NCBI GenBank assembly: GCA_037447655.1
Contig: JBBHKE010000660.1
Coordinates: 145,067-209,066, forward strand
Reading direction: 5' to 3'
DNA from: Zygnema cylindricum
Lineage: Eukaryota > Streptophyta > Zygnematophyceae > Zygnematales > Zygnemataceae
DNA: 64,000 nt
Shown here piece by piece: positions 14,916 through 45,830 of this stretch. The position numbers were made by a program, and so were the translations under genes. Numbering within the stretch: position 1 is the first letter of the stretch; every line of letters begins with the position of its first letter. A model generated the notes under the pieces. It saw only the letters and a list, made by a program, of their open reading frames with translations, did not search any database and had not been told where the DNA came from.

Positions 14916-17900
14916 TTAAAACTCGTTGCCACTCATCCCTCCCTCATTGAAACTGTTGTCTTGTTGACTGTCGGCATCTTCAATATTTTGGAGGAATTCC
15001 CTTGCCCTCGGGCATGGAGGTTCCACAGCTTCGCCTTCGAAGTGGTTGCGATATTTGCTGATTATGCCTTGCAGTTGTTGTGTGAGCATGTCTTCTTCCC
15101 ACTTTCCGTCGCGTAGAGACAAGCCACATTGAATCATGGCTTTTCTCGCATAACTAATTCCATTTTTGTCTCTCATCGCATTGACCTCTCGGATGGAGTC
15201 CCTCGCCAACTTTAAAAAAAACGCTTTACCGGGTCCAACCAATTTACCGGACCATCCACGGCTAGAAGGTTTAGCCCATTGACCGTTCTCAATTCCTTTC
15301 GCCTTCCAACTATCCCAAATGCGACTCCATACGTCCTTGATTTTGGAAATCACGAACGAGTCGGCCGGTTGAACAAGATGTGTTGCATTAGGTGGAAAAT
15401 AGTGTAACACGGTGTTCTTGGCCTCTAGAACTCGCTCCAACTCGTCGGACGTGTTGTGACCCCCGCAGTTGTCCAAAAATATAATTTTTTGACGTCCTTC
15501 TCGATCCCCTTGGTAAGACCTTGCCTCTTCGACCCATTGTGGGAACACCGTTTTATCATTCCACCCCTTCGGACCGGTCCGGTAACAAACGCCTGCAAAT
15601 ATATACAATACACAAACAAAGGGAAAAAAATTATCATATTGAAATGCTTGCTTACATATGCATTACAGGGAAAGTAAGCTACGCATTCCATTGAAAGCTT
15701 AAAAATGTGAGTCATTACTTTAGATAAGAGAAATCAGAGTGTTCAAGAAAAAATAAACCCATGTTTTGTAGTAGGAGAAGGGGAGAGGAGGTATGCGAGA
15801 ACTAGGTAAAGAGACATACAAAAAAAGATTAAACACAAAAACATGGTTAGAGATAAATGGATAAATCTCCGTTAAATCTAAGAAGACATAATACATATAA
15901 CGAAAACATTAGACGAGGGTGAAAAAACACACCGGGTACGTTGTCCGGTAAACCTTGTATCGGGTAACTTCTTGCTCGATTTGCAAAAATTATCATTGGG
16001 TTCTCGATACGAGCGTTCATCCCTCCACTTAGTCGCACCATGAGAGTCATGGACTCGCCTCCTCCGGCAACATCAGCGTATTTCACCACTTCGTCCCCTC
16101 TAAACCCCAAAGTTTTTCCATTATCGGTGTTGACTATCATGTGTGTTTCATCCATGTTTTCCATCAGGTCTTCGTTAAAAAGTCCTGTTTTATATTTGCC
16201 GCCAAGCCAAAACAAAAGTAGTTATTTTGGGTTTACGCCGTCAAGTATGGAATACAACGATAACAATACAAAAAAATAAACAAACGTCATTAAACTATAT
16301 TTCGTAATGAAACTCACCGGATTCAAACCCCCGCTTTAGAACGCCCATATGGAACGATACGGTACGCTCAATGTATTCCTCTTTCTCGGGACTACATTGT
16401 AGTTTCCCCTTTTGTGCACGCACCACGATGTTGTGCTTCTCTTGACACCTCTGCACCCACCTTTTATTTATGATTGGATGTATTTCCGACCCGTCCTTGT
16501 TGAACCATTCCGGGCCATACTCTTTCCTCCTCTCTCTTATTATGTCCCTAGCGATGTCCCCGAGAATTGTGGTGGACATCTTCATACCCGCTTTCTTAAA
16601 ACGTTCGAAATCCGAAAGTAACTCCTCGTGTATAACCGTGACCCAAGCGGCTTCCTTCCTTCCTCGTCCCGGCAAAGCCTTGGTAACTGCCACCGATCTC
16701 GTCCCAAAACTAGAAGTAGAAAACGTACGGGTTGTCTCTCGTATTCCGTCAAGCGTGGACCTCCTCTCTACCCACCATCGCTTCGCCTTTTGGTACCCTG
16801 TAAAAAATAAATAATGTCAAAAGTATTAGTCCGATTCCTGAATGGAAAGTCGTTTAAAAAAATGGAACTAATCAAAAAGGAAACAACAATTTTCAGCGAC
16901 AAAAATTTGCTGTCGCAGATTCAGCGACGAAAGAAACTCGTCGCTATATCTGCAAAATTACATTTTTAATTAACAACATCGTTGATACGTCCTGGGCTGC
17001 CAATGAGAATTCCTCAATTCGCCGACGAACCAGCGACGACCTTATGTCGTCGTTAAGCCGAGAAAGATGAATAGCAATTACAATGGCTATATCAGAAAAA
17101 CCAAAAGTACAACTAAAAGTCGAATTTAAATTCATTTTGTGAAAAAAAGGAAGAGAAATATGAAATTCACCCTTGCATGAAAAAAAAAAAAAAAAAACAA
17201 AAAAAACATTATGGCACCCAATAAAGGCTGAGAGATAAATCGGGGTACCTCTCCTTCGAATGAAATACACGAAATTGACCTTCGTCATCTCCCATCAACG
17301 TCGCCTAATGGCAGCAAGCTCTCGAGTTAAATTATTAATTAAGCGACGAACCGTTATCATCGCTATTTCTTGCGCCTCCAAACGACGATGGAGATTTTGA
17401 ACTTCATTCCTCAATCGGTCTACTTCCGGTGGTGGAGGGGGCTCATCAACATGTGGGACCCTCGGAATTTCCCAAAGATACGTACGCCTCACTTGCACAT
17501 TTCGGAACGTTGTAAGACCGTACTTCGAGCATCTAAAAATTCGTTTAGCTCCGGAGTACGAATTGCACGACGTAGAATGGTAAATAACCGTGGGTCCCAA
17601 GGGTGATAATGTCGGATTAATTCCGGGACATCTATCTCAAATCCATTTGGTCGGCGTACAATCCATGTGAAACGTTCGTCATTAGGCTGAAAATGCCTAA
17701 TGTATGGGAAATTTGACGCATGGTTGTATGATGCGATGTACAACCATGTTGGGTGGGCAGGGACATCCGGATGGATGTCGAGAATTTCCGGGACGGGGTT
17801 CAACCACCGGTCAATAGGCCTCGCCTCTCCAAAACGCCAATAGTCCGGCCAATCCTCGACCGGGATGTAATGGGCAGCTGTCGGTCGGAAGCCATCCATG

Positions 17901-26094: not shown

Positions 26095-27690
26095 TCATGC
26101 CATCCAACGACGATGCTGTGTCGTCGCTGAATGGTAAATTCGTGCATATCCCATGCCATTTTTGTCCTTTATTTCGTTCACCTCTCGTATCGAATCGCGT
26201 GCCAACTTTAAGAAAAAGGCTTTACCCGGTCCTACTAACTTACCACACCATTTTTTGCCCCTTAGGGACTTGTGGCTCTCTACCCCTTTCATCTTCCAAT
26301 CTTCCCATTTTCTTGACCACACCTCTTTGATTTTAGAAATTACAAATGAATCGGCAGGTTGCACTAAATGCGTTGCACACGAATGAAAAAATTGGAGTGT
26401 TGTTCTCTTTGTGTGTAAAGCGCTGTTTAATTCCTCCGACATATTGTGAACGCCATAATTGTCCACAAATATTACCTTTTCACGTCTATCACGGTCTCCT
26501 TGGTATGACCTCGGTTCAGCGATCCATTGTGGGAAGACCGTCTTGTCGTTCCAATCTTTCGCCCCGGTACGGTAACTGACTTCTACAGAAGAGAGTGGGA
26601 AAAGATATTGAGTGAGGGAGGGAGAGAGAGGGCGACAAGTGCATAGGGAGAAATCAATATAAAGAACATATCACTCCATATATAATATTTTGGGTGTAGA
26701 GTACAATGGTGAATAAGTGAGACAATAACGTTAATATTTATAAGGAAAAAGATTCATAGGGAAAGAAAAACACCTGGTATGTCATCGTGGATGCCCTTGA
26801 TCGGGTAATTACGGAGCTTGTTGGCGAAGATTAACATAGGAGATTCAATTTCGGGCGCTCACTCCGCCCGTGAGTCGAACCATCAAAGTCATTGACTCTC
26901 CACCTTTGGCAACATCCGCGTATTTGACCACCTCGTCCCCGCGAAAACCCAACGTCTTTTTGTTATCCATATTTACAATCACGCGGGTCTCGTCCATGTT
27001 TTCGACTAGATCCTCGTTGTAGCGAGCTATAATCAAAATATCACTTAAAATTGTAAGAAAAACACAACATAGAAAAGTATGATGGCCACGGCAACTACTT
27101 TTATTCGCTTATCTGCATTTATATCCCTAGAAAACAAGATTTAAATAATAAATTTAAAATATATCACATCATATAGCAATGAGTTGTAGAAATGTTGAGA
27201 AAACTTACCCGATAAAAATCCTTTTTTTAATTCGCCCATGTGATATGCTACTATTTTTTTCGATGTATTCCTCATGCACCGGGCTTAATTGTAACATTCC
27301 TTTTTGAGCCCTCGTCATAATACTATGTTTTTCGCAAAACCGTTGAGTCCGTCGTTTTGTCATTTTTATTTTTATCTCCTTACCATTTTTCTCTATGAAT
27401 AGTCTCCTATTCTCCTCTTTCATAAGTTTAATGATATGAGCTGCCATGGTCCCTACAATGGTTTGCGACATTTTCATACCCTCCCTTCTTAAAGCGGTAA
27501 AACTCCTCCACCAACTCCGAGTGCACTGTTGTGACCCATGGAAATTCCTTCCTTGCCCTACCCGGCAGTGCTTTTGTCACCACCACACTTCTTTTTCCAA
27601 ATCCCGCAGACGACAAAGTATGTTTTGTCGCCCGTATGTCTCTCAATGTCGTAACCCGACCCTTCCACCACCGACTTGTTTTTTGGTATT
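26095..27690 (-). pseudogene. Pogo transposase of element 2, exons 2-4, decayed
   Basis: Exon 2 starts at 27690 after TTGCAG and encodes a region homologous to element 1 (KALPGRARKEFPWVTTVHSE, MTKRRTQRFCEKHSIM). It has a one-base insertion near 27478 and another in an A-run near 27255. Exon 3 (about 27025-26785) keeps ENMDETR and GFRGDEVVKYADVA. Exon 4 (about 26580 on) keeps VDNYGVHN and LVQPADSFVISKIKEVW, so the catalytic Asp positions survive. The C-terminus is lost after NGMGYARI, where the frame runs into TCGTCGC repeats. Its exon 1 is about 19 kb away (46804-46405) because of nested insertions. Confidence 0.85.
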
Positions 27691-35379: not shown

Positions 35380-35660
35380 GGCAACGTGTCATGCCGCATG
35401 GTATCGGACGCATGCGCGCACAATATTTTGCATGCGTACACGATATCGCGCACGCACACGCACAATATTGTGCTCGCACGCGCGATATTCTGCATGCGTG
35501 CACGATACGGTGCACGCACACGCGTTATTGTGTCCACGCGCACGATATCGTGCACGCGTTCACGATATTCGGCGGTGCGCGTGATTTCATTCACACGCGC
35601 ACGATATCATTCTCGCACGCACGATATTTTAGCGTGCGTGTATGATTTTCGGTCGCACGT
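35380..35660. repeat. Degenerate CACGATAT / CACGCACACGCG array
   Basis: About a dozen imperfect units mixing GCACGATATCGTGC, GCACGCACACGCG and ATTTTGCATGCGT. Long alternating purine-pyrimidine stretches are present. No conserved coding frame is evident; His/Arg/Ala frames are artefacts. Confidence 0.75.
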
Positions 35661-35972
35661 GCGACCGCGATTTATTTATGTTAGATGTGTACGCTATTCG
35701 CGTACACGTCTAATAGAACACATACTAATTTCGTGCGTGGGTACCATGTCGTTTCGTGCGCAGGTACACATTTTTCAAGTATTTCGTGCGATACCATATA
35801 TTTCGTGCGATATGTTTCGTTTCGTGCATACGCACGCGATTTGGGGAGTATCGACGTGAAGTATCGTTTGGAGGCGTATCGCGATTTCCGGGCGACGCGT
35901 CGATTCATATGTTTATTTAAGTCGCGAACCCATGTAGGTTCGCGCATACATGTAGTTAGGGAGGGTTTTTAC

Positions 35973-36243
35973 TAGTGTTGGGTATCGAGGACCCATTGCC
36001 GATATTCGATATATATCGAATTTCATGTACCCGATATTCGATATATCGCTTCGATATATCGAATTTCAAATTATCGCGATATATCGCCGATATATCGCCG
36101 ATATATCGCCGATATATCGCCGATATATCGCCGATATATCGCCGATATATCGTATCGACGATATATCGAATATGAAAATTTTAAATTTTTTTTTTTCAAA
36201 ACCCACCCCCCCCCCCCCCCCCCCCCCCCACTGAGCGCTCAGT

Positions 36244-36285
<42 letters not shown>

Positions 36286-36505
36286 AATCCGTACGATTTT
36301 TCGTACGATTTGTCGTACGATTCTCCGTACACTTTTTCGTAAGGTTTTCCGTACTCTGACTGTACGGACACGAAATTTTTGCGATATATATCGCGATAAT
36401 TTATGTTGGTCTCGGTACGATATATCGAGGATCCTCCTCGATCGATATTCGATATATCGAATATCGAAATTATCGCGATATGAATCTACCCGATACCCAA
36501 CACTA
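35973..36505. mobile_element. hAT-type MITE (533 bp) with GATATATCG satellite and C24/G39 hairpin
   Basis: Terminal inverted repeats TAGTGTTGGGTATCG...CGATACCCAACACTA, flanked by an exact 8-bp duplication GTTTTTAC (35965-35972 and 36506-36513). The interior has about seven tandem CGATATATCGC units (36070-36150) and an extreme palindrome: C24 (36206-36229), ACTGAGC, GCTCAGT, G39 (36244-36282). Non-coding. Confidence 0.93.
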
Positions 36506-37484
36506 GTTTTTACCCTCGGACAGTGGATTATGCGGAACGTGCGGCAGACAATGTTGGCCGCCTATTGGCCAACATTTTAAGTAGTTCTTTCATGTGAACT
36601 AGTCTAGACTTAGGTTAGGGTTTGCGTAGGCGTAGCGTAGCTAATACTTAGTCTATTTTCAGACTTAGAATTTCTAGCTTTTGGACAAGAATTTTCTCTT
36701 GGCGGCGGAGCTTTCTCTTGCTCTCTCTCTCACCGATTGCTCAAGTTTCCTCCTTTCTTTTGCTAGCTAGCTGTAGAGGCTAGATAGTTTACGTACATTC
36801 TCCTTTGTAATTTTGCCCACGCTTTTAATCGACGCGGCTCAAAGCCAAGTCCGGAAGGTTTCCCTCCAACTTGTGTCATTTTTGGGAAGTGGTGGATTGG
36901 AGTTCGTGTGGAGAAGCATCCGGATCCGGCTGCCCTTCCAACGGACAGCTAGACGGTTTGGGTGTTTGTTTTGTGTTGTTTGTATTTTCGGTTGGGAATG
37001 GAAGGGTGAATTTTGGCTGAATTTTGAGTTTTCCTTGTTTTTGGTTGGAATTATTTATTTTGCTTCGTTGCTTTCGTACGAGATAACTCTTGTAAAGAAT
37101 ACGTTGAAGACCCAAGAGCCTAGTGGCTACCTTGTGGCTTAGTATTCTTGTCCAAAAGGCTTCGCATTTCAAAGGCTTTTATTTGAATTAAATTATTAAA
37201 AATATCAAATTTATTTTATAAAAAGAAAAAAATATCACCTTTCATTTTCAGTTTTAATTCATAGCTTGGTCTCTTCTATTTTCTTTCCAAATTACATTTC
37301 GTTTTCAGTTTTGCTTTGAAATAAAAATATTACAAAATTAATTAATTTTATAAATTTTATTTTATAAAAAAAAAAAAAAAAAAAAAAAACATAATGTTTT
37401 TGTTTCCGCTATTTCTTTCTTTTAATCTTTGTCTCTTATTCTGTCACCACTATATTTCTTGGCTTTAGTGTTAAACCTAAATTT

Positions 37485-37722
37485 TGTTCGAATTTAGGGT
37501 TGATCTGCAAAATTAGGGTTAATCTACAGAATTAGGGTTCGGAGGCAGAATTAGGATTTTGGCTGCAAAATTAGGGTTGCAGCATATTTAGGGTTTATTC
37601 CTTTTGATTCCAGTCCTTAGGTCAGTATCCTTTTATTCTTTGGCTGCAGATTTGGAGTCTTGGCCGTCTAGAATTAGGGTTTTCCTTTGGAATTAGGGTT
37701 TTCCAAGTGGAATTAGGGTTGA
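37485..37722. promoter_or_regulatory. Cluster of TTAGGGTT (telo-box-like) motifs
   Basis: At least seven TTAGGGTT words (reverse AACCCTAA) in about 240 bp of the gypsy leader. In plants telo-box motifs (AAACCCTAA type) bind TRB proteins and occur in promoters. A regulatory role here is inference. Confidence 0.4.
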
Positions 37723-38548
37723 CTGCTGGCTTTGGATTATTGTGGTCACAAGTTGGGCTGTATATCTGGAGTTTGAGCGGCCTCGTACTTTATTCTAACA
37801 CACGTTCCCTATCTATCGTATTTGTTTGTCTTATTGTTTATTTTTCTTCCACCGAACGCTATCTTCCCTCCCTTCCATTGATCCCCTAACATTCCACGAC
37901 ATACATCTTCACGGTACAAACGGGTCTTGCGGAGGATTATTTTGGAGACGTTGCTCGGAGCGAATTTCGTGGAGTGAATTTTATCACAGGGAGCTGTGCA
38001 AAACCCGACTTGCTTCGAACAAGTTCGGTTCACCCTTAGTGCTCACCAAAGCACTAAAGGTGTCTGTAAGTAGCCGATGCCTTGCGGGTGCAAGAGCGTT
38101 CCGATTTAGTGTGGACACTCGTGTAGGGGATCGGTGTGGAAGGGTTCCATAGTGAACCTTTTTTATAGAGCATTTGCATTTTCCGGCTTTCCCTGCATGC
38201 TATCTGGCCCTAAGTGGCCTTGGATTTTCTTGTGACTATCTGGAGTGGGATTTCTTGCTAGATCTTGCCGTGGGTGGCACTTTGTAGACCTTTTCCCGGC
38301 TGTGTTCTTGTAGATCTGCACCCTAGGGTGCCTAGATAGCAATTTTCTTGTTTTTATAGATCTAGCCCTTTGGCCTTGCCAACTGTTTGCAGGGTAGAGG
38401 TTTTGGTAAACCGACTTCTTGCTAGATACGACCATCGGGTCTTGATAGTGACTGGTGTGTTGACTGGACGAGTGGATTAGTTTGACATGTGTTGCATCTC
38501 GATTAGGTCTTGCCAAACATTTCATTATTGTAGTCAGGGTTTTCCCCT

Positions 38549-39934
38549 TTGTTTGTGCCCACAGATTGGGATAACCTTCATTATTTATCCGAGTCCACCC
38601 AAAGAGGTACACTGTATCGTCCTCCGCAGATAAATCCTTCGGATTTTCCCGAATCATGGACCACATCCGATCCGATTACGAATCGCAGATCGTCGTCAGT
38701 GCGGTCTGGTCTCACATCTACGTCATCTGTGTCCTCGGTTTCATCTAGGTCACAACTAGAGGGGACCGAAGAAGACTTCCTAGAGGAAACCTTTCCTACT
38801 CCTCACACTCGTAGGTCCCCTATCAGCCCATCTTTGGCACAACCGGCCAATCCTTCCCTTTATGACATGGCTTTCTCTTCAGAGGGATCCATGGGAAGGA
38901 TGCAATTCTGCTTTTCCAGATTAAAGGACACCATGTCCTTGTCGCATTTCCGTATGTTATACAATACGGAAATGAGGGATTTAGCATTTAGATATCAGGA
39001 TAGGTTTGACCTCTGTGTCGCTTTTTCCCTACACGGTCGATACCTTCGTGGTACGGCCCGCACACTCTACACTCGCAAGTACAAGGATGTGCTTCCGATG
39101 ACAAAGTACGTGGCTCCCTTTGCGGGGTTACCAGAAGTCTTAGGCCAAGTGGATATCCCATATCAGGCACCAAGACCAGTAGTATTAGATGCCAATGGGG
39201 ACGAGTTGTATCCAGCTATCCCCGAGGTTCCCCGTCAGTATGCAGTGGCTGCCCGAGCGGCGGTCCCAGCTAGAGCGGGGGGCACCATTCCCTTACGTGA
39301 CCCTCTCTCAGTCATGTTTGACATCCTCCAAGAGGAGTACCAGATGCAAAATCCGGATCAGATCAAAGAGTTAATGAACTTCGAGCGTAGGCCAGGTGAA
39401 ACTGCCCCTGCCTTGCGAGATCGGATGGAAACTCTGCGTGAAGCATTACCGGACCTCATGTCCGATGCGAAGGCTGCCCAAAAATTTGTGGGACAGTTTC
39501 CAGGTCCTTCAAAGAGGTTTATCCCAAACCACCTCAGCCAGATGTATGGACTGAAATTCACCTTTAAGCAAGTGGCTCAGTACGCGGTAGAGTATGAGAT
39601 GCAGACATCGTGGTGGGATGCCCATGAGCGTTCCAAACCTCCTCACAGAGAACCGGTTAATCTATCTCCTCCTCCACCTAAATTCCCATGGCCTCCTAAT
39701 AGGCCCCAGAAGACGCCGGCCATAAGAACTCCACCCGTTAGTCCCGAAAACCGAATGTGTTTCCGATGTGGAAAAACCGGGCAGGATGCCCGCATGTGTC
39801 TTGACTAGGTGGCCACTTGCACTCATTGCCACCAAAAGGAACATTATGTCAATCGGTGCCACATCAAGGACCCTAATTTCACCTATCAAAATCAGATAAA
39901 GAACGCTGGAATTCCAACCCGTTCCGCGAAACCA
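38549..39934 (+). pseudogene. Gypsy gag with two zinc knuckles split by TAG
   Basis: Open from about 38549; the first in-frame ATG is near 38866, so the true start may lie upstream. A Ser-rich N-terminus is followed by the capsid-like region (DPLSVMFDILQEEYQMQNPD, RDRMETLREALPDLMSDA, FVGQFPGPSKRFIPNHL) and a Pro-rich linker. Knuckle 1 is CFRCGKTGQDARMC (His replaced), then TAG at 39806-39808. The same frame continues directly with an intact CCHC knuckle CTHCHQKEHYVNRC. In the ancestor gag probably ran on into pol in this frame. The TAG is more likely a nonsense mutation than programmed readthrough, given the other TAGs. Confidence 0.8.
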
Positions 39935-40499
39935 GTCACTCCGCCTAAGGAGACTGGGAAAGAGGAAGCTCCCCCTAAGATCTCTTGTAGAGAGAGAGAG
40001 AAGGCCGAGCTTCAAGCCACAATGGCGGCCATGATAAAAGAGCAATTTGCAGCTTTCATGGCGGAAATGAAACCTCAGTTTACTGGGATGGCCAGGACCG
40101 TTGTCCACATGCCGCCGTTGGCTGGGCGAACCCTTCGGGATTCCACCGTCCAACAACGGGTTACCACATTTGAAAAGGGCTCAGCAGATCATAACGGAGT
40201 GGGCAAATTACAAAATTCTCGTGTCCCACTCTCATTTGCAAAAGAGCCTCTGCCTTCCCTACCGGACACAGTTTATACCATCGCGGCAGAGGCACTGACC
40301 ATATTGGATGGCACTATTCATGAGGCTCATCGGGTAAAGGAGCGATTAAGTATTCTTTCTGCAATGTTGGAAGATGTACCGAAAGCCCTTCCCCTCGTTG
40401 ATGAGGTCGCAGCAGCAGCCGCTTTGAGGGCTCTGCAGTTAAACCGCAGCCTCTCAGCGGTTCAACCCGTTACTACGGAAGAGCGTGGTAATCTCGATC

Positions 40500-40930
40500 C
40501 CCATATCAGTTTCCTTGATAACTCACGGGGATCATTCTCAGTGAACGGTGTTCACCCCACTCTTCCTCTCATGGACACCGGGGCCAAACCCGTGATCCTC
40601 GGATCCGGATTTGCGCTCAAGCTTGGTCTGACAGCAGACAAGCTTCAGGCGACCACTACCCGTCTTCTTACTTCGGCTGGGACCACGGAGCCGGTCCTCG
40701 GAATCACAAAGGACCCGCTCATCTTTCGGTTTGAGACAGGAACCGAAAATGAGTCCGTTGAAATTGTTGTCAGAGCATTAGTCACTAAATGTGACGACTA
40801 TGAGTGTTTGGTGGGTCAAGACGTTATATTCCGAATTGGCGGTGGTGTGGACATGCACGACCAAACATTTTCTTACCGACCGACACACTTTCCGGAGCGC
40901 AAAATCTGCCTCCCTCTCATTTCAGCCCGC
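40500..40930 (+). pseudogene. Gypsy aspartic protease region
   Basis: PLMDTGAKPVILGSGFALKL carries the retropepsin DTGA active site at about 40570. It is followed by LLTSAGTTEPVLGITKDPLI and YECLVGQDVIFRIGGGVD, the latter resembling the I-L-G-x-D end of gypsy proteases. It lies in the gag frame. The frame then changes before the methyltransferase domain, around 40.95-41.05 kb. Confidence 0.75.
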
Positions 40931-41169
40931 CGACCTTTGCCCACTATGGCTCACTCGGCTACGGCTCTTCCCGCATTTTTGGGGAACTCCGTTGGGGAGG
41001 AAATTTTCCACTCTCTTCGGCCGAAGAAATTATACGGGATAGTTCTCCCTTACCCGAGCTCTTTGCGGAATCGGGTTTTCTTATATATTCTCACACCTTT
41101 GACAATATTTACAAGTCCACATTATCTATTCCATTAACAACTATCCCTTCTATACCTACGGTTGCAACC

Positions 41170-42240
41170 GATCCTTCGGGTTTCTTTCCAATCAGTTGGA
41201 AGCCTGTACAGTTGAATCCTCATACAGACGGGGTCGTTATTTTAGATCTATTCGCTAGGATCGGAACTTCACTATTGTCATGTTTACGGAATGGTTTCCT
41301 CATCCGTCACTACTATGCAGTAGAAATTGATGCATTAGCTAGAAAAGCACAATTGCACCGCTGTAATCTCCTGCATTCACAGTATCCATAGTTGTTTCCA
41401 AAATCAGCCTTTCTACACATGCACACTGCTCTTCCACAAGACATCCGCATCCTTAGTAATCATCACCTACGGGATGTCGAACCGATAGACCTTGTTTTCA
41501 GGGGGTGGGAGTGTCAAGGCATGTCTCGGGCCGGCAAAGGTCTTGGTTTGGCGGATCTCCGTACCAAATTGTTTTTTGAGCTTTTGAGGGTTGTTCATTT
41601 TCTTCAAACCATGGCCAAGCCTGTCGGATACATTTTAGAGAACGTTGTTGCTTATAATGATCTTCGGCCTACAGTCTTGGCTGACTATAAACGCATAGAA
41701 CACCTTATCGGACCCCCGCTAATTATTGATGCCGCTCGGCATGGGTCCTTGGCACATCGGGTTTGCTCTAAATGGACAAACCTAATCGATGTTGGTCGTC
41801 TTCGTGAGGCTAATTTGTTTGTAAGACCTCCCACTACAGACATTACGACCGTTTTGCTTCCCTTTCACCAAGTCCAATCATGTGTCCAAACTGACTACCC
41901 TCCGAATTACAACATTAATGTACCCTGCCAACCACTCAAGGTCCTTCCTACTTTAGTGTCTTACCCTAATACCCATGCAAGCTCTCATAACAATCCAGGC
42001 ATGCTTCAGAATAATGTTACTGGAGAGTTAGAGGAGCCTAGGGCCACAGAACGGGAGCATCTCATGCATTTTTTTACAAGCACTGTGCGGCCCCCGGCCT
42101 TACGGATAGACAGCGTTGCACTTTGTTGGGTAGGGTCACCGATCCTTAGTCGTTATCATTTGTCTTAGGTCGCGGCCTTGCAGCTGGTCGCTACGCACAG
42201 AATCAACCCGTGCAACCAGCTGGGGGGGGGGGTACGATGG
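41170..42240 (+). pseudogene. C5 cytosine DNA methyltransferase domain inside the gypsy pol
   Basis: Motif I GVVILDLFARIGTSLL (AdoMet binding; about 41230); motif II HYYAVEIDALAR; motif IV DLVFRGWECQGMSRAGKG with the catalytic Cys (about 41519), although the usual Pro before it is Glu; GLADLRTKLFFELLRV; motif VI YILENVV (about 41630); then RATEREHLMHFF and LLGRVTDP...SLSFVLGRGLAA, like motifs IX-X. The order is I-IV-VI-X, not the permuted DRM order. The KLFFELLR and ENV spacing is nearest DNMT3-type enzymes. Breaks: TAG at 41389-41391, a frame change near 42.11 kb and TAG at 42147-42149. A working copy would methylate cytosines in DNA, perhaps the element's own cDNA or target chromatin. The family assignment is firm; the subfamily and role are inference. 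Confidence 0.88.
42222..42232 (+). other. G11 tract after AGCT (possible central polypurine tract)
   Basis: AGCT followed by 11 G, at the junction of the methyltransferase and RT regions. The 3' end of the element has AGCT followed by 9 G (45615-45627). Retroelements that use a central polypurine tract carry a copy of the 3' tract inside pol. Confidence 0.3.
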
Positions 42241-42540
42241 CTCCTTCACGTCATGTTTCCTCTGGCACCTCTCTTTGTCTCAAGGGAAATCCATTGCAAT
42301 ATTTTCTCTTCCCTTCTCTCACAACTGCGGTTAAGGACATCTCTATCTATGATTTCCACAACTCTAGTCATGTGTCTTGTGAAATCCCGGCCCATATAGC
42401 CGTTCAATCCACAATATCATCGTTTCCCGGTCTGGCACCACACTGGACATCTGCATTTCCGACGCGTAGCTGGCACCACAGGGTGAACTACTTGCAGCAG
42501 ACATCGAAAATGCGAGTTAGGCCTCTCCCTTATCGCCGAT

Positions 42541-44220
42541 GAGCAAATTGCATTTGCTCAGGCAATGGAAGCTTTCACTATTAAGAGTCCGGAGACGCCC
42601 AAGTGGAAGTTCGGTTCCAGTCTCACAATGGCGGAACAGGCACTATTAAGTGACACAGTCACCCGTCATATAGATGCGTTTGCTTTCTCCATGAATGACC
42701 TTGGACGTCATTCTACTTACAAAATGTCTATCGACCTTGAAGACGATCGACCTATCTTTAAGCCGAAACACCGTCTCTCTGAAATGGAATGGGAGATGGT
42801 GGACAAAAGATGCGCTGAATTGGAAGAAGCCGGTCTAATCTATCGGTCGGATTCCACCTTTGCCGCCCCCACAGTCATGCCTAGGAAGAAAGATTCCGAC
42901 GGAAATTTTACTGAGCGAAGAATGTGTGGGGACTATCGAGAGCTCAATGCTCGGACCGTTCAAGACCGCCACCCTATGCCTCTAGCGGAGGAAATATTTG
43001 ACCATGTAGGTGGTGCAAAGTTCTTTAGCATTCTTGACTTGCGTCAAGGGTTTAACCAGATTGAAATCGAGGAAAGAGATCGGCATAAAACTGCATTTTG
43101 GGGCAGTGATGGTCGGTGGGAATGGGCAGTCATGCCTTTCGGTCTTAAAAACGCACCCGCCGTGTTTCAAAAAGTCATGGATTCGGTGCTGGGTGGATGT
43201 AAATTTGCCCGGTGCTACATCGATGACTTGATAATCGCTTCCGCCACGGTCGAGGAACACGCCCGCCATATTGAGTGGGTTCTCACCGAGTTGAAGAAAG
43301 TCGGGCTGAAGTGTCACCCAGCCAAGTGTACGTTCGGTGCGGAGGGAGTGCCCTACCTCGGCCATTTTATTTCGGCTGAGGGCATCACCCCCTTGGAAGC
43401 TAAGGTAGAGGCAATCACGAAATTGCCAGCTCCCACAGATCTCACTAGTCTGAGGGCTTTTCTCGGACTAGCCAATTATTACCGTCGGTTTGTACTAAAT
43501 TTTAGTACGATTGCTTCTCCCCTCAATGACCTTCTCAAAAAAGAAGTGCCTTTTGTTTGGGGACCCGCCCAAGTAGAAGCGTTTCAAAAACTGAAAACCG
43601 CCCTCTCTAGCGCTCCCATTCTTCGACCTCCTAACCACAAGCTTCCCTTTTGCCTACAAACCGATTTCGGGAAGCCAGGCATTGCGGCTATTTTAACGCA
43701 AAGAGAGTTGAATGGAGAGGAATACGTAGTGGCATACGCTAGCCGGAGCAATAACCGAGCTGAATCTAATTACAGTAGTTATGAGGGTGAATGTCTCGCG
43801 CGGTATGGGGTATTGTTCATTTTCGACATTATCTTTACGGCAAGCCATTCACGCTCCTAATTGACCATCAACCCCTTCATTGGTTGATGACCAACGATAA
43901 GCTTTCAGAGAAACAAGCCCGATGGGCTTTAATTTTACAAGAGTACGACGTTGAGATCATCTATCGGCCCGGTTTGTTAAGCTTGAACGCCGACAGGATT
44001 TCTCGGAATCCACTACCCCGGACCACCGATAACGGTGTCCGGCAAGATTTCGCCGAGGACGAGGTACCGGCCATGTCGGCTGGTTCCTATATCACTTACT
44101 GTCTTTCTTCTATTCCTCATCCTCGGCCGGCCACAGATCCGTGGCGCGACGACCCATTAATCCTCTTCCTCTCCTCTCAAACGTTTCGGCCCGGTACTAC
44201 CGCCGAAGAGGAAGACCAGT
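42541..44220 (+). pseudogene. Gypsy reverse transcriptase and RNase H
   Basis: RT is open from about 42541 to 43860. It has KPKHRLSEMEWEMVDKRCAE, CGDYRELNARTVQDRHPMP, FSILDLRQGFNQIEI, WAVMPFGLKNAPAVFQ and the catalytic YIDD at about 43215 (ARCYIDDLIIAS). PYLGHFISAEGI and LRAFLGLANYYRRFV follow, then RNase H (LPFCLQTDFGKPGIAAILTQ, YASRSNNRAE). A one-base loss near 43800 shifts the frame; RNase H continues as HFRHYLYGKPFTLLIDHQPL to about 44100. Another shift near 44210 precedes the integrase. These motifs place the element in Ty3/gypsy. The domain copies RNA into DNA and removes the template. Confidence 0.9.
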
Positions 44221-45420
44221 AAAGAAACGAGCCAAAAATTATATGTGGCTCGGCGGATCTTTAGTTCGATTGCTGGCGGACAGCAGTCATCGGCATGTCC
44301 CCCCTGCCAACCGAGCGCTTGTCTTTGATTGAGCAGATACATACCGAGCTTGGCCATTACGGGACCAAGCGTACTTTGAGCCTTGTACAGGCACGCTATT
44401 GGTGGTCCGGAATGCAAGCGGATGTGGGGGCCATTCTCCACAAATGCGCCACATGCGACCGGCTACTCACCTCTTTCTCTAATCGGCAGGCGTCTCTACA
44501 GCCATTGCCTATCAGAGGATTGTTTTATCGCTGGTCCGTGGATCTCGCCGGACCGTTTCCCTTATCTCGAAAGAGGAAACAACACATCATGATAATGATT
44601 GAAAATTTTTAGCAAGTGGGTAGAGGTGGTCGCTCTTCCCCACAAGACCGCTAAATTGACCACTGCTGCTTTTAAAGAGCACGTTCTCATGCGTTATGGA
44701 GCTCCTGCGGAGGTTCTTACGGACCAGGGTACGCAGTTCCGTGGGGAATTTCAAGAGATGTTGGATGAAGCTTTAATTGATCATCGCCGGACGAGTCGTG
44801 ATCACCCACAAGCCGATGGCTTGGCGGAACGAGCTGTCCAAACTTTGAAGCGGGCCCTCCGAAAGCATTGTTTAGAGAAACACATCTCCGTTTGGGACGA
44901 ATCCTTGGGCTATATCACCATGGGATACCCGATGTCCGTACAGGCTAGCTTGGCTAATTTCAGCCCGTACTATATTCTCTTCGGTCGAGCACCCTTGCTC
45001 GGTCGGAATATTTAGAAAGCAACAAGTTTACCTTTGCCTCTAATGTTTGACACCATATTTTTGGAAGAACTAACTCGCCGTGCTTTGCTTTTCGCTCGTG
45101 AGATGCCCATGGCTTTTGATAATTTGTAGATTTTCCAACATCGGGATACTTTACGCTTTGCCACCACGCGAAGTGGCAGTTACAAGCCTCAACAGAAATC
45201 TTACCGAGTCGGAGATTACGTGTACCTTCGACGACAATCTTTCGACACTTTGGACACGGATGTTTCACCACACATTCTTCGTGTGGTGGAAATGGATGCT
45301 AATGGGATGTTGAGTTTGCAGGGTGCGGATACAAGGATAATTCGAGAGCATTCGAAGAACTGTGCACCTTGTTACTTACCAGATTTGTCACAGGATATGG
45401 ATCCGATGAGGATGCCAATC
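44221..45420 (+). pseudogene. Gypsy integrase
   Basis: HHCC zinc module (IHTELGHYGTKRTLSLVQAR, HKCATC), then the catalytic D,D,E core: WSVDLAGPF (Asp about 44541), LTDQGTQFRGEF (Asp about 44722) and DHPQADGLAERAVQTLK (Glu about 44826). A C-terminal region follows with YRVGDYVYLRRQSFDTLDTD. Breaks: frame changes near 44.3 kb, one extra T near 44610, TAG at 45013-45015 and TAG at 45127-45129. The integrase runs directly into the PHD finger in the same frame. Confidence 0.88.
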
Positions 45421-45612
45421 ACAGAGGCGACAGAATGTACCATTTGCAGGCGAACAGACGGCGAGACTTCCATGCTCTTGTGCGACCATTGTAACCAAGG
45501 GTTCCACATGGAGTGTTTAGTTCCTCCATTGACTGCTGTGCCAGGTGGCCATTGGTTTTGCCATGGCTGTCGTGAGCTGCCAGCGGTTTTGACCAGCTCC
45601 TCCGCAGGCTAA
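45421..45612 (+). pseudogene. C-terminal PHD zinc finger of the gypsy polyprotein
   Basis: The Cys4-His-Cys3 ligand set is complete: CTIC, LLCDHC, GFH, MEC, WFCHGC (about 45436-45570), with the Trp before the last Cys pair typical of PHD fingers. It ends in TAG/TAA-proximal LTSSSAG and a stop at 45610-45612. PHD fingers bind histone H3 tails. At the end of an integrase it occupies the place where chromoviruses carry a chromodomain that steers integration. A targeting role is inferred by analogy. A RING or B-box is less likely because of the ligand spacing. Confidence 0.88.
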
Positions 45613-45830
45613 GGAGCTGGGGGGGGGAATTATAGGATTCACTTATTGCTAAGGGAGTATTCTTCCCTTTTTATTCTTTCGCCATCTTCACCTTTATTCT
45701 TTTGCATGTTGTATATACATTTTGACCATCTCATTCATTTTCGTTTGTATATATGTTTGGAGCATGACTTTGCTGGTTGGGATGCATGTTCGCTCTTTCT
45801 AGTCTCTCATGCACGACAAACGACGTGCAA
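45613..45830 (+). other. 3' end of gypsy element
   Basis: G9 purine tract (45619-45627) followed by AATTATAGGATTCACTT and about 200 bp of T-rich DNA, then the pogo element resumes. No TG start and no matching 5' copy are seen, so if this is U3 of a 3' LTR it is truncated. Confidence 0.4.

Follow-up and report, generated by a model that had tools for sequence, protein, structure and literature searches.

A Gypsy-type retrotransposon family of Zygnema cylindricum with a DNA methyltransferase, a PHD finger and split direct repeats, and its possible insertion through a circle

The element at the locus

This work deals with a retrotransposon found in a stretch of 64,000 nucleotides (the window) of the Zygnema cylindricum genome (assembly GCA_037447655.1, contig JBBHKE010000660.1, positions 145,067 to 209,066 of the forward strand). 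Its polyprotein carries a DNA methyltransferase (DNMT) between protease and reverse transcriptase (RT), and a PHD finger after the integrase. An earlier note, made from the letters of this DNA alone, had described the element at 41170-45612. The order and strand of its domains are confirmed by Pfam on the window frames, but not its extent, with gag and repeat A1 lying upstream and repeat B1 downstream: the full copy spans 35387-45818 on the plus strand, with ends fixed by comparison with other copies, and is flanked on both sides by the 4-bp target duplication AACG. The combination of DNMT and PHD finger is a trait of a lineage and not an accident of one dead copy. Moreover, judging from its sequence, we think that this is probably a self-priming Gypsy-type element with split direct repeats that inserts via a circle. 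The features of the window copy are the following:

35383-35386 (+): target-site duplication, left copy (AACG), matching 45819-45822
35387-37143 (+): repeat A1, starting TGTCATGCCG, with 98-99% identity to A of copy C1063; a nested insertion splits it
35973-36505 (no strand assigned): nested insertion of 533 bp inside A1, with terminal inverted repeats TAGTGTTGGGTA...TACCCAACACTA, seen as a gap in the A1 alignment
36678-36692 (+): self-primer stretch CTTTTGGACAAGAAT, candidate 5' end of the RNA, exact complement of 37144-37158
37144-37158 (+): putative primer binding site directly after A1, complementary to 36678-36692
38534-39808 (+): gag frame with a CCHC-like knuckle near its end (by eye), matching gag of other copies
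39809-41137 (+): rest of gag and aspartyl protease, DTGA at 40574 (PF13650, 3.4e-5)
41204-42168 (+): DNMT3-like C5 DNA methyltransferase with an in-frame stop at 41389-41391 (PF00145, 1.5e-7)
42217-42232 (+): candidate central polypurine tract CAGCTGGGGGGGGGGG, with a similar tract at the same place in 18 of 20 loci
42487-44222 (+): RT and RNase H, YIDD at 43216, frame change near 43800 (RVT_1, 6.2e-30)
44265-45012 (+): integrase, H2C2 zinc domain and DDE core, in two frames (PF17921, PF00665)
45130-45405 (+): integrase C-terminal domain; the matching piece of copy L009 has no Pfam match
45433-45570 (+): PHD finger, C-x2-C...C-x2-C...H-x2-C...C-x2-C (PF00628, 6.9e-12)
45611-45627 (+): 3' polypurine tract directly before B1, by sequence
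45628-45818 (+): repeat B1, ending CATGCACGACA, the right end of the window copy, 99% identical to B of C1063
45819-45822 (+): target-site duplication, right copy (AACG), matching 35383-35386

The window copy is dead, with stops at 39806 (between gag and protease) and 41389 (inside the DNMT) and with shifts of the reading frame ahead of the DNMT, between it and the RT, within RNase H and within the integrase. It has one A and one B only, in the layout A-body-B. The PHD finger does follow the integrase, as the earlier note had it, but not directly after the D,D,E core, as the integrase C-terminal domain intervenes. The Pfam scan gave no match for the gag frame 38534-39808, and Pfam detected neither a chromodomain nor a tyrosine recombinase in the frames of the window and the scanned pieces of L009.

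The domain pair in the host genome

A search of the genome (352.8 Mb in 2,689 contigs) gave well over a hundred relatives of the window element, with 147 DNMT-piece places scored of 1586 candidates and 150 places of the integrase tail with PHD scored of 1606. Twenty copies were fetched, 18 of them chosen for long open frames and two for identity. In 17 of the 20, DNMT and PHD are both present and enclose RT and integrase core; these include L016, in which the PHD is partial, and L026, in which it is reached via a frame change. In the other three (L013, L024, L025) the downstream part is cut off or rearranged. The concern that other copies might lack the two domains is thus answered, and so is the possibility that the DNMT is a separate insertion: in the intact family member recovered, L009, protease, DNMT and RT share one open frame, and the whole series gag-protease-DNMT-RT-RNaseH-integrase-PHD forms a single stop-to-stop frame of 2,395 codons.

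The same pairing is seen across the scored places. At least 55 of the 147 DNMT places (three second pieces having been dropped from 150 rows) are followed on the same strand, within 12 kb, by a scored PHD place, and 47 of these pairs are spaced by 3.3-4.2 kb; for one DNMT place the PHD place is upstream or on the other strand. A chance insertion of DNMT or PHD in one dead copy is ruled out by the other copies, by the L009 frame and by this pairing. The genome also holds a second Gypsy-type family with both domains (C1374:24600-32500, loci L040 and L041, one copy read); its DNMT has the canonical P-C-Q, RT, RNase H and integrase are present, and its PHD is diverged. A PF00145 survey of the genome does not separate host DNMT genes from element copies.

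Two side observations concern the coding part. The RT protein of the window (42508-43800) is 99.5% identical to those of L011, L012, L014, L018 and L019, against 85-90% for the DNMT in the same comparison, which may reflect selection or gene conversion. Besides, L010 (C1407) has a long open DNMT frame of 1,757 aa.

Properties of the added domains

The DNMT is recognised by PF00145 at 1.5e-7 in the window and at 1e-12 in the intact copy. Its best match in the PDB is DNMT3A (1e-10), DNMT3A and DNMT3B being the nearest among solved structures, and its structural model is a confident one, with a mean predicted local distance difference test (pLDDT) of 90.4 and a predicted template modelling score (pTM) of 0.90. 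The C5 methyltransferase motifs listed in the earlier note do mark such a domain, with one correction, as motif IV reads W-E-C-Q rather than P-C-Q. In an alignment from which domains under about 250 residues were dropped, the catalytic Cys of motif IV and the Glu of motif VI are kept in all 71 domains; the motif IV triplet is ECQ in 42, PCx in 19 and other in 10, and the residue preceding the Cys is Glu in 43 (ECQ 42, ECS 1). By its sequence the DNMT of the element is of DNMT3 type and keeps its catalytic residues.

The PHD finger displays the Cys4-His-Cys3 pattern by Pfam and by coordinates, and its best PDB matches are PHF12, BAZ2B and a KDM5-type lid. PHD fingers of the PHF12, BAZ2B and KDM5 type bind histone H3 with unmodified K4, and those that read H3K4me3 have a Trp two residues before the His. 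Among 104 aligned PHD fingers this position is occupied by Gly in 92 and by Trp in one. In sequence the PHD finger of the element resembles the readers of unmodified H3. The closest relatives of the integrase in the PDB, by sequence, are those of prototype foamy virus (PFV; 1.2e-17) and Ty3 (3.8e-17).

Relatives in public protein data

Searching 5.8 billion proteins for the DNMT yielded 30 matches, the named sources of which are Klebsormidium nitens, Closterium, Haematococcus and the code Mesvir1, which we take to be Mesostigma. A PHD is present in 17 of the 21 matches that have an integrase core (P0003, P0004, P0027 and P0028 are without it). A search with the integrase tail plus PHD, a query biased toward PHD bearers, gave 105 matches, and 12 PHD-RING proteins of a different kind (P0121-P0132; ten bear the name PHRF1 or PHD and RING finger protein) were dropped from the survey. 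Within P0001-P0120, from both searches, 111 proteins have an integrase core: 68 bear DNMT and PHD, 36 PHD only, five DNMT only and two neither. The PHD-only proteins with RT mostly begin near it, so an upstream DNMT may have been cut off in them; in P0047 and P0077, which have more than 500 residues before the RT, no DNMT was found. A protein search with the broken DNMT piece of the window alone gave 498 candidates and none at E 0.001.

The domains come in two layouts, protease-DNMT-RT as in the window, and RNaseH-DNMT-integrase in the majority of the survey. In an RT tree of 72 rows, unrooted because the outgroup RT of L013 (which holds stops) was left out, the two layouts split at 100/98, with rows devoid of DNMT on both sides and five DNMT rows on the side of the window. 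In the DNMT tree the second layout makes up one branch of 59 rows at 100/99 (RT or RNase H is seen in 50 of them, integrase only in nine), the window family groups with P0001, P0002 and P0048 at 100/98, and nine rows with the protease-side layout group at 88/91, below the threshold for a star. Two Closterium rows fall, on long branches and at 80/82, with a 121-aa stretch of DNMT3A, the only host-type DNMT3 in the tree, and their DNMT may, from this placement, have been acquired separately.

Regarding novelty, a literature search covering openly accessible papers without supplements recognised no report of DNMT and PHD together in a Gypsy element. The combination, of which the earlier note knew no description, is not unique, as it recurs in many algal and environmental polyproteins. 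The pair is widespread and seems, within the literature searched, to be an undescribed variant of known elements.

Split repeats, junctions and priming

The classification of the element as a Gypsy retrotransposon stands for pol but not for the ends. The order protease-RT-RNase H-integrase, with a DDE integrase, is that of Ty3/Gypsy, with the additional DNMT between protease and RT, but identical long terminal repeats (LTRs) at both outer ends were not found. Ordinary LTRs at the outer ends are ruled out by the maps of the A and B repeats. The element is Gypsy-type by pol only and is not a canonical LTR element: its ends are split direct repeats.

Copies C1344 and C1063 have the layout A1-body-B1-GC-A2-B2, with A of 931 and 1,212 nt and B of 242 and 191 nt, respectively; A1 and A2 are 100% identical over the 931 nt and 99.6% over the 1,212 nt. 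Their outer ends are TGTC...GACA, with target duplications TTGG (C1344) and TTGT (C1063). C2234 shows the same layout with the duplication TAGA, and 4-bp target duplications (AACG, TTGG, TTGT, TAGA) are present in all four copies readable at both ends. The order B1-A2-B2 was read in nine of 20 loci (L009-L012, L014, L018, L019, L023 and L028); the remaining loci stop short of B2 or have lost their right end. DIRS and PAT elements have split direct repeats in the order A1-body-B1-A2-B2, and this layout is shared with the window family.

The B1/A2 junction is extremely regular. The motifs CATGCACGACA and TGTCATGCC face each other at a 2-base spacing in 199 of 199 genome sites, counting unchanged motifs only; the count stayed at 199 when 0-12 spacer bases were allowed, and a reversed-pattern control gave 0. 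Among 100 junctions listed, the spacer bases are GC in 65, AC in 17, GT in 11, AT in two and other in five. The 28 changes from GC to AC or GT correspond to a C-to-T decay pattern at CAG/CTG, and these transitions would fit the decay of methylated CAG/CTG sites.

The A2|B2 joint, on the contrary, was found to be unlike in all eight copies compared (L009, L010, L011, L012, L018, L019, L023, L028), five of which belong to one subfamily. Relative to C1344 and C1063, A is shortened at the joint by 226 nt in L010 and by 80 nt in L012, and B is shortened by about 100 nt in L023. In L009, L011, L018, L019 and L028 a few bases are gained or lost, some of them from the polypurine tract or the primer site. 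L014 also shows a gap at the joint.

Immediately behind A1 the sequence is exactly complementary to a segment further upstream within A1, over 15 nt in the window and 14 nt in C1063, 465 nt apart. C1344 has an 18-nt pair of different sequence, 474 nt apart, and a third sequence, of 21-23 nt and about 575 nt apart by reckoning, pairs in L015, L017 and L022. The pairs of the three subfamilies thus span 14-23 nt and share their last bases only (GAAT). In a comparison with shuffled controls over 12 loci, six exceeded the shuffled maximum. We consider the site a candidate for self-priming, as its sequence is complementary to an upstream segment of the element that may form the start of its RNA. The Tf1/sushi elements are self-priming with a pairing of 11 nt. 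The window family is alike in that its putative primer site is complementary to a part of its own repeat lying 465-474 nt upstream (two subfamilies) or about 575 nt upstream (the third subfamily), and differs in its longer pairing (14-23 against 11 nt) and in its termini. A second polypurine tract, central in position and nearly identical to the 3' one, is present between DNMT and RT in 18 of 20 loci.

Comparison with known systems

The DNMT-bearing Gypsy element of a charophyte cited in the earlier note as an analogue does exist. KnitGypsy-Dnmt3 of Klebsormidium nitens has, in the parts of its description covered here, Gypsy domains, a Dnmt3-like DNMT in Pol that is under purifying selection, and DIRS-like repeats (de Mendoza et al. 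2018, PMC5890265). It is the closest described element, as it shares with the window family the DNMT in the Pol of a Gypsy-type element; the DIRS-like split repeats have been read here in the window family and are known by description only for KnitGypsy-Dnmt3. A PHD is named nowhere in the main text of that paper, figures and supplements being outside this count, and self-priming, the GACA-GC-TGTC junction, 4-bp duplications and a variable A2|B2 joint do not appear in its parts covered. The K. nitens protein P0008 has a CCHC knuckle (by Pfam) followed by protease and DNMT; its DNMT groups with the second family of the Zygnema genome at 89/84, not starred, the window family being in another branch.

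Other systems resemble single traits of the family. Chromoviruses also have a domain of the chromatin-reader type after the integrase C-terminal domain, but theirs is a chromodomain, in the place of which the window family has a PHD and, by Pfam, no chromodomain. DIRS elements differ in using a tyrosine recombinase, whereas the window family has a DDE integrase and 4-bp target duplications. SymbioDIRS-Dnmt3 likewise bears a DNMT, according to the covered parts of PMC5890265. The DNA transposon Ginger1-9_HM has a PHD at the C-terminus of a Gypsy-like integrase (PMC2836005); it carries Ulp1, and neither RT nor DNMT is mentioned in the relevant passages of that paper. Finally, the integrase of PFV, the closest one in the PDB by sequence, is reported to cleave a palindromic LTR-LTR junction with loss of two bases, and for other retroviruses the reports of closed circles as integration substrates are described as not substantiated in the part of PMC1180852 covered. 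In PFV the palindrome is the LTR-LTR joint, whereas in the window family it would lie inside the deduced LTR, the LTR-LTR joint being A|B.

Insertion through a circle and its alternatives

The primer site after A1 and the polypurine tract before B1 would place the cDNA ends at the start of B and the end of A, and the LTR as made would thus be B-GC-A. The integrated ends (A start and B end) would therefore differ from the cDNA ends and fall inside the LTR, at a palindrome like that of a retroviral circle junction. We propose that the RNA would fold back on itself and prime reverse transcription, giving a linear cDNA with B-GC-A LTRs. Its ends would then be joined imprecisely by end joining into a two-LTR circle, which would explain the variable A2|B2 joint. 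The integrase would cut the palindrome GACA-GC-TGTC inside one LTR, and the opened circle would be inserted with the loss of two bases. The A-body-B form of the window copy could come from a one-LTR circle or from later recombination between B1 and B2. As for the additional domains, the PHD may tether the integrase to nucleosomes whose H3 tails are unmodified, and the DNMT may methylate the new cDNA or the insertion site. The epigenetic read-and-write kit suggested in the earlier note holds as regards the presence of the domains; histone reading and self-methylation are still conjectures, drawn from domain class and from what the authors of PMC5890265 put forward for related elements, and the circles are conjectured from the repeats. 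More tentatively, a green-algal lineage might have turned a retroviral dead end into its normal route, in which the integrase acts on a circle at a palindrome inside the LTR and the same polyprotein supplies a PHD histone reader and a de novo DNMT, so that a closed, possibly premethylated circle would be brought to nucleosomes with unmodified H3.

Other origins of the termini have been considered. Reverse transcription might directly yield a linear A-body-B-GC-A-B cDNA, inserted by the integrase as usual with no circle involved. The TGTC/GACA outer ends and the 4-bp duplications do look like ordinary integrase ends, but the primer site and polypurine tract put the cDNA ends at the A end and B start, and a joint that varies and is sometimes shortened speaks for end joining and not for template copying; we think that this route is unlikely. 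It is quite improbable that an ordinary LTR integration was followed by recombination between neighbouring or circular LTR copies that made the split repeats. The single A and single B of the window copy could arise in that manner, but the 2-base spacer is fixed at 199/199 sites, the target duplications lie at the A start and B end in 4/4 copies, and B-GC-A is at the outer left end in none of the four copies with the left end read. A tyrosine recombinase would not be expected to make 4-bp target duplications, which counts against a DIRS-type cycle in which the split repeats are resolved by the recombinase of another element. The frame encodes a DDE integrase, and the Pfam scans of the pieces covered gave no recombinase, so we give very little credence to such a cycle, even if the A1-body-B1-A2-B2 layout matches that of DIRS/PAT and the repeats of KnitGypsy-Dnmt3 have been likened to DIRS (PMC5890265, Fig. 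4 legend).

A different question is whether the DNMT and PHD do other work, such as RNA methylation, particle assembly or a restraint that benefits the host. In the parts of PMC5890265 covered, the authors raise RNA methylation (for the long interspersed element, LINE, class) and slower transposition, and the KnitGypsy DNMT gave no methylation in yeast, a result that they call inconclusive; this result also weighs against the proposal of self-methylation. On the other side, the DNMT catalytic residues are kept, the two domains occur together in 17 of the 21 integrase-core proteins from the DNMT search, and the PHD comes after the integrase, which is also the place of chromodomains. In our opinion such other work is rather doubtful.

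Several further points count against a self-priming, circle-inserting element equipped with a histone reader and a methyltransferase. Histone binding by the PHD is proposed from likeness, and the Trp of the H3K4me3 type is absent. Constraint on DNMT and PHD is looser than on RT: the median ratio of nonsynonymous to synonymous change (Ka/Ks) among copies is 0.35 for the DNMT, 0.26 for the PHD, 0.17 for the integrase and 0.09 for RT, values raised by the inclusion of dead copies and taken after dropping pairs outside the limits set for synonymous change (saturated). The domains also occur apart, PHD without DNMT in 36/111 and DNMT without PHD in 5/111 survey proteins. With respect to the termini, a second B was recognised in two of five further right ends fetched (L036 and L039 only), and no left repeat or end was found for C1407 (L010) in 1,100 extra bases of flank. 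No self-primer match above the shuffled control was found in six of the 12 loci; L012 and L019, among these, start after the binding site, and L028 holds the place yet shows none.

Retrotransposons carrying a DNMT are known, yet unexplained. In many relatives of the window element the DNMT is accompanied by a further chromatin-type domain beside the integrase, and this association in two layouts points to a joint, testable role at or after integration. The termini are more surprising than the domain pair, since they offer a natural record of a possible circle-to-provirus route, with about 200 readable junctions in one genome, for a question that is still open in retrovirology.

Other features of the window

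The nested insertion inside A1 (35973-36505) is flanked, as read from the sequence, by the 8-bp repeat GTTTTTAC, and we take it to resemble a miniature inverted-repeat transposable element (MITE) of hAT type. The tRNA and Rfam scans of the window gave no match. On the minus strand, 14919-15662 and 26098-26670 are two related open stretches, the first of which contains a DNCGGHN motif; presumably they have the look of a pogo-like DDE transposase.

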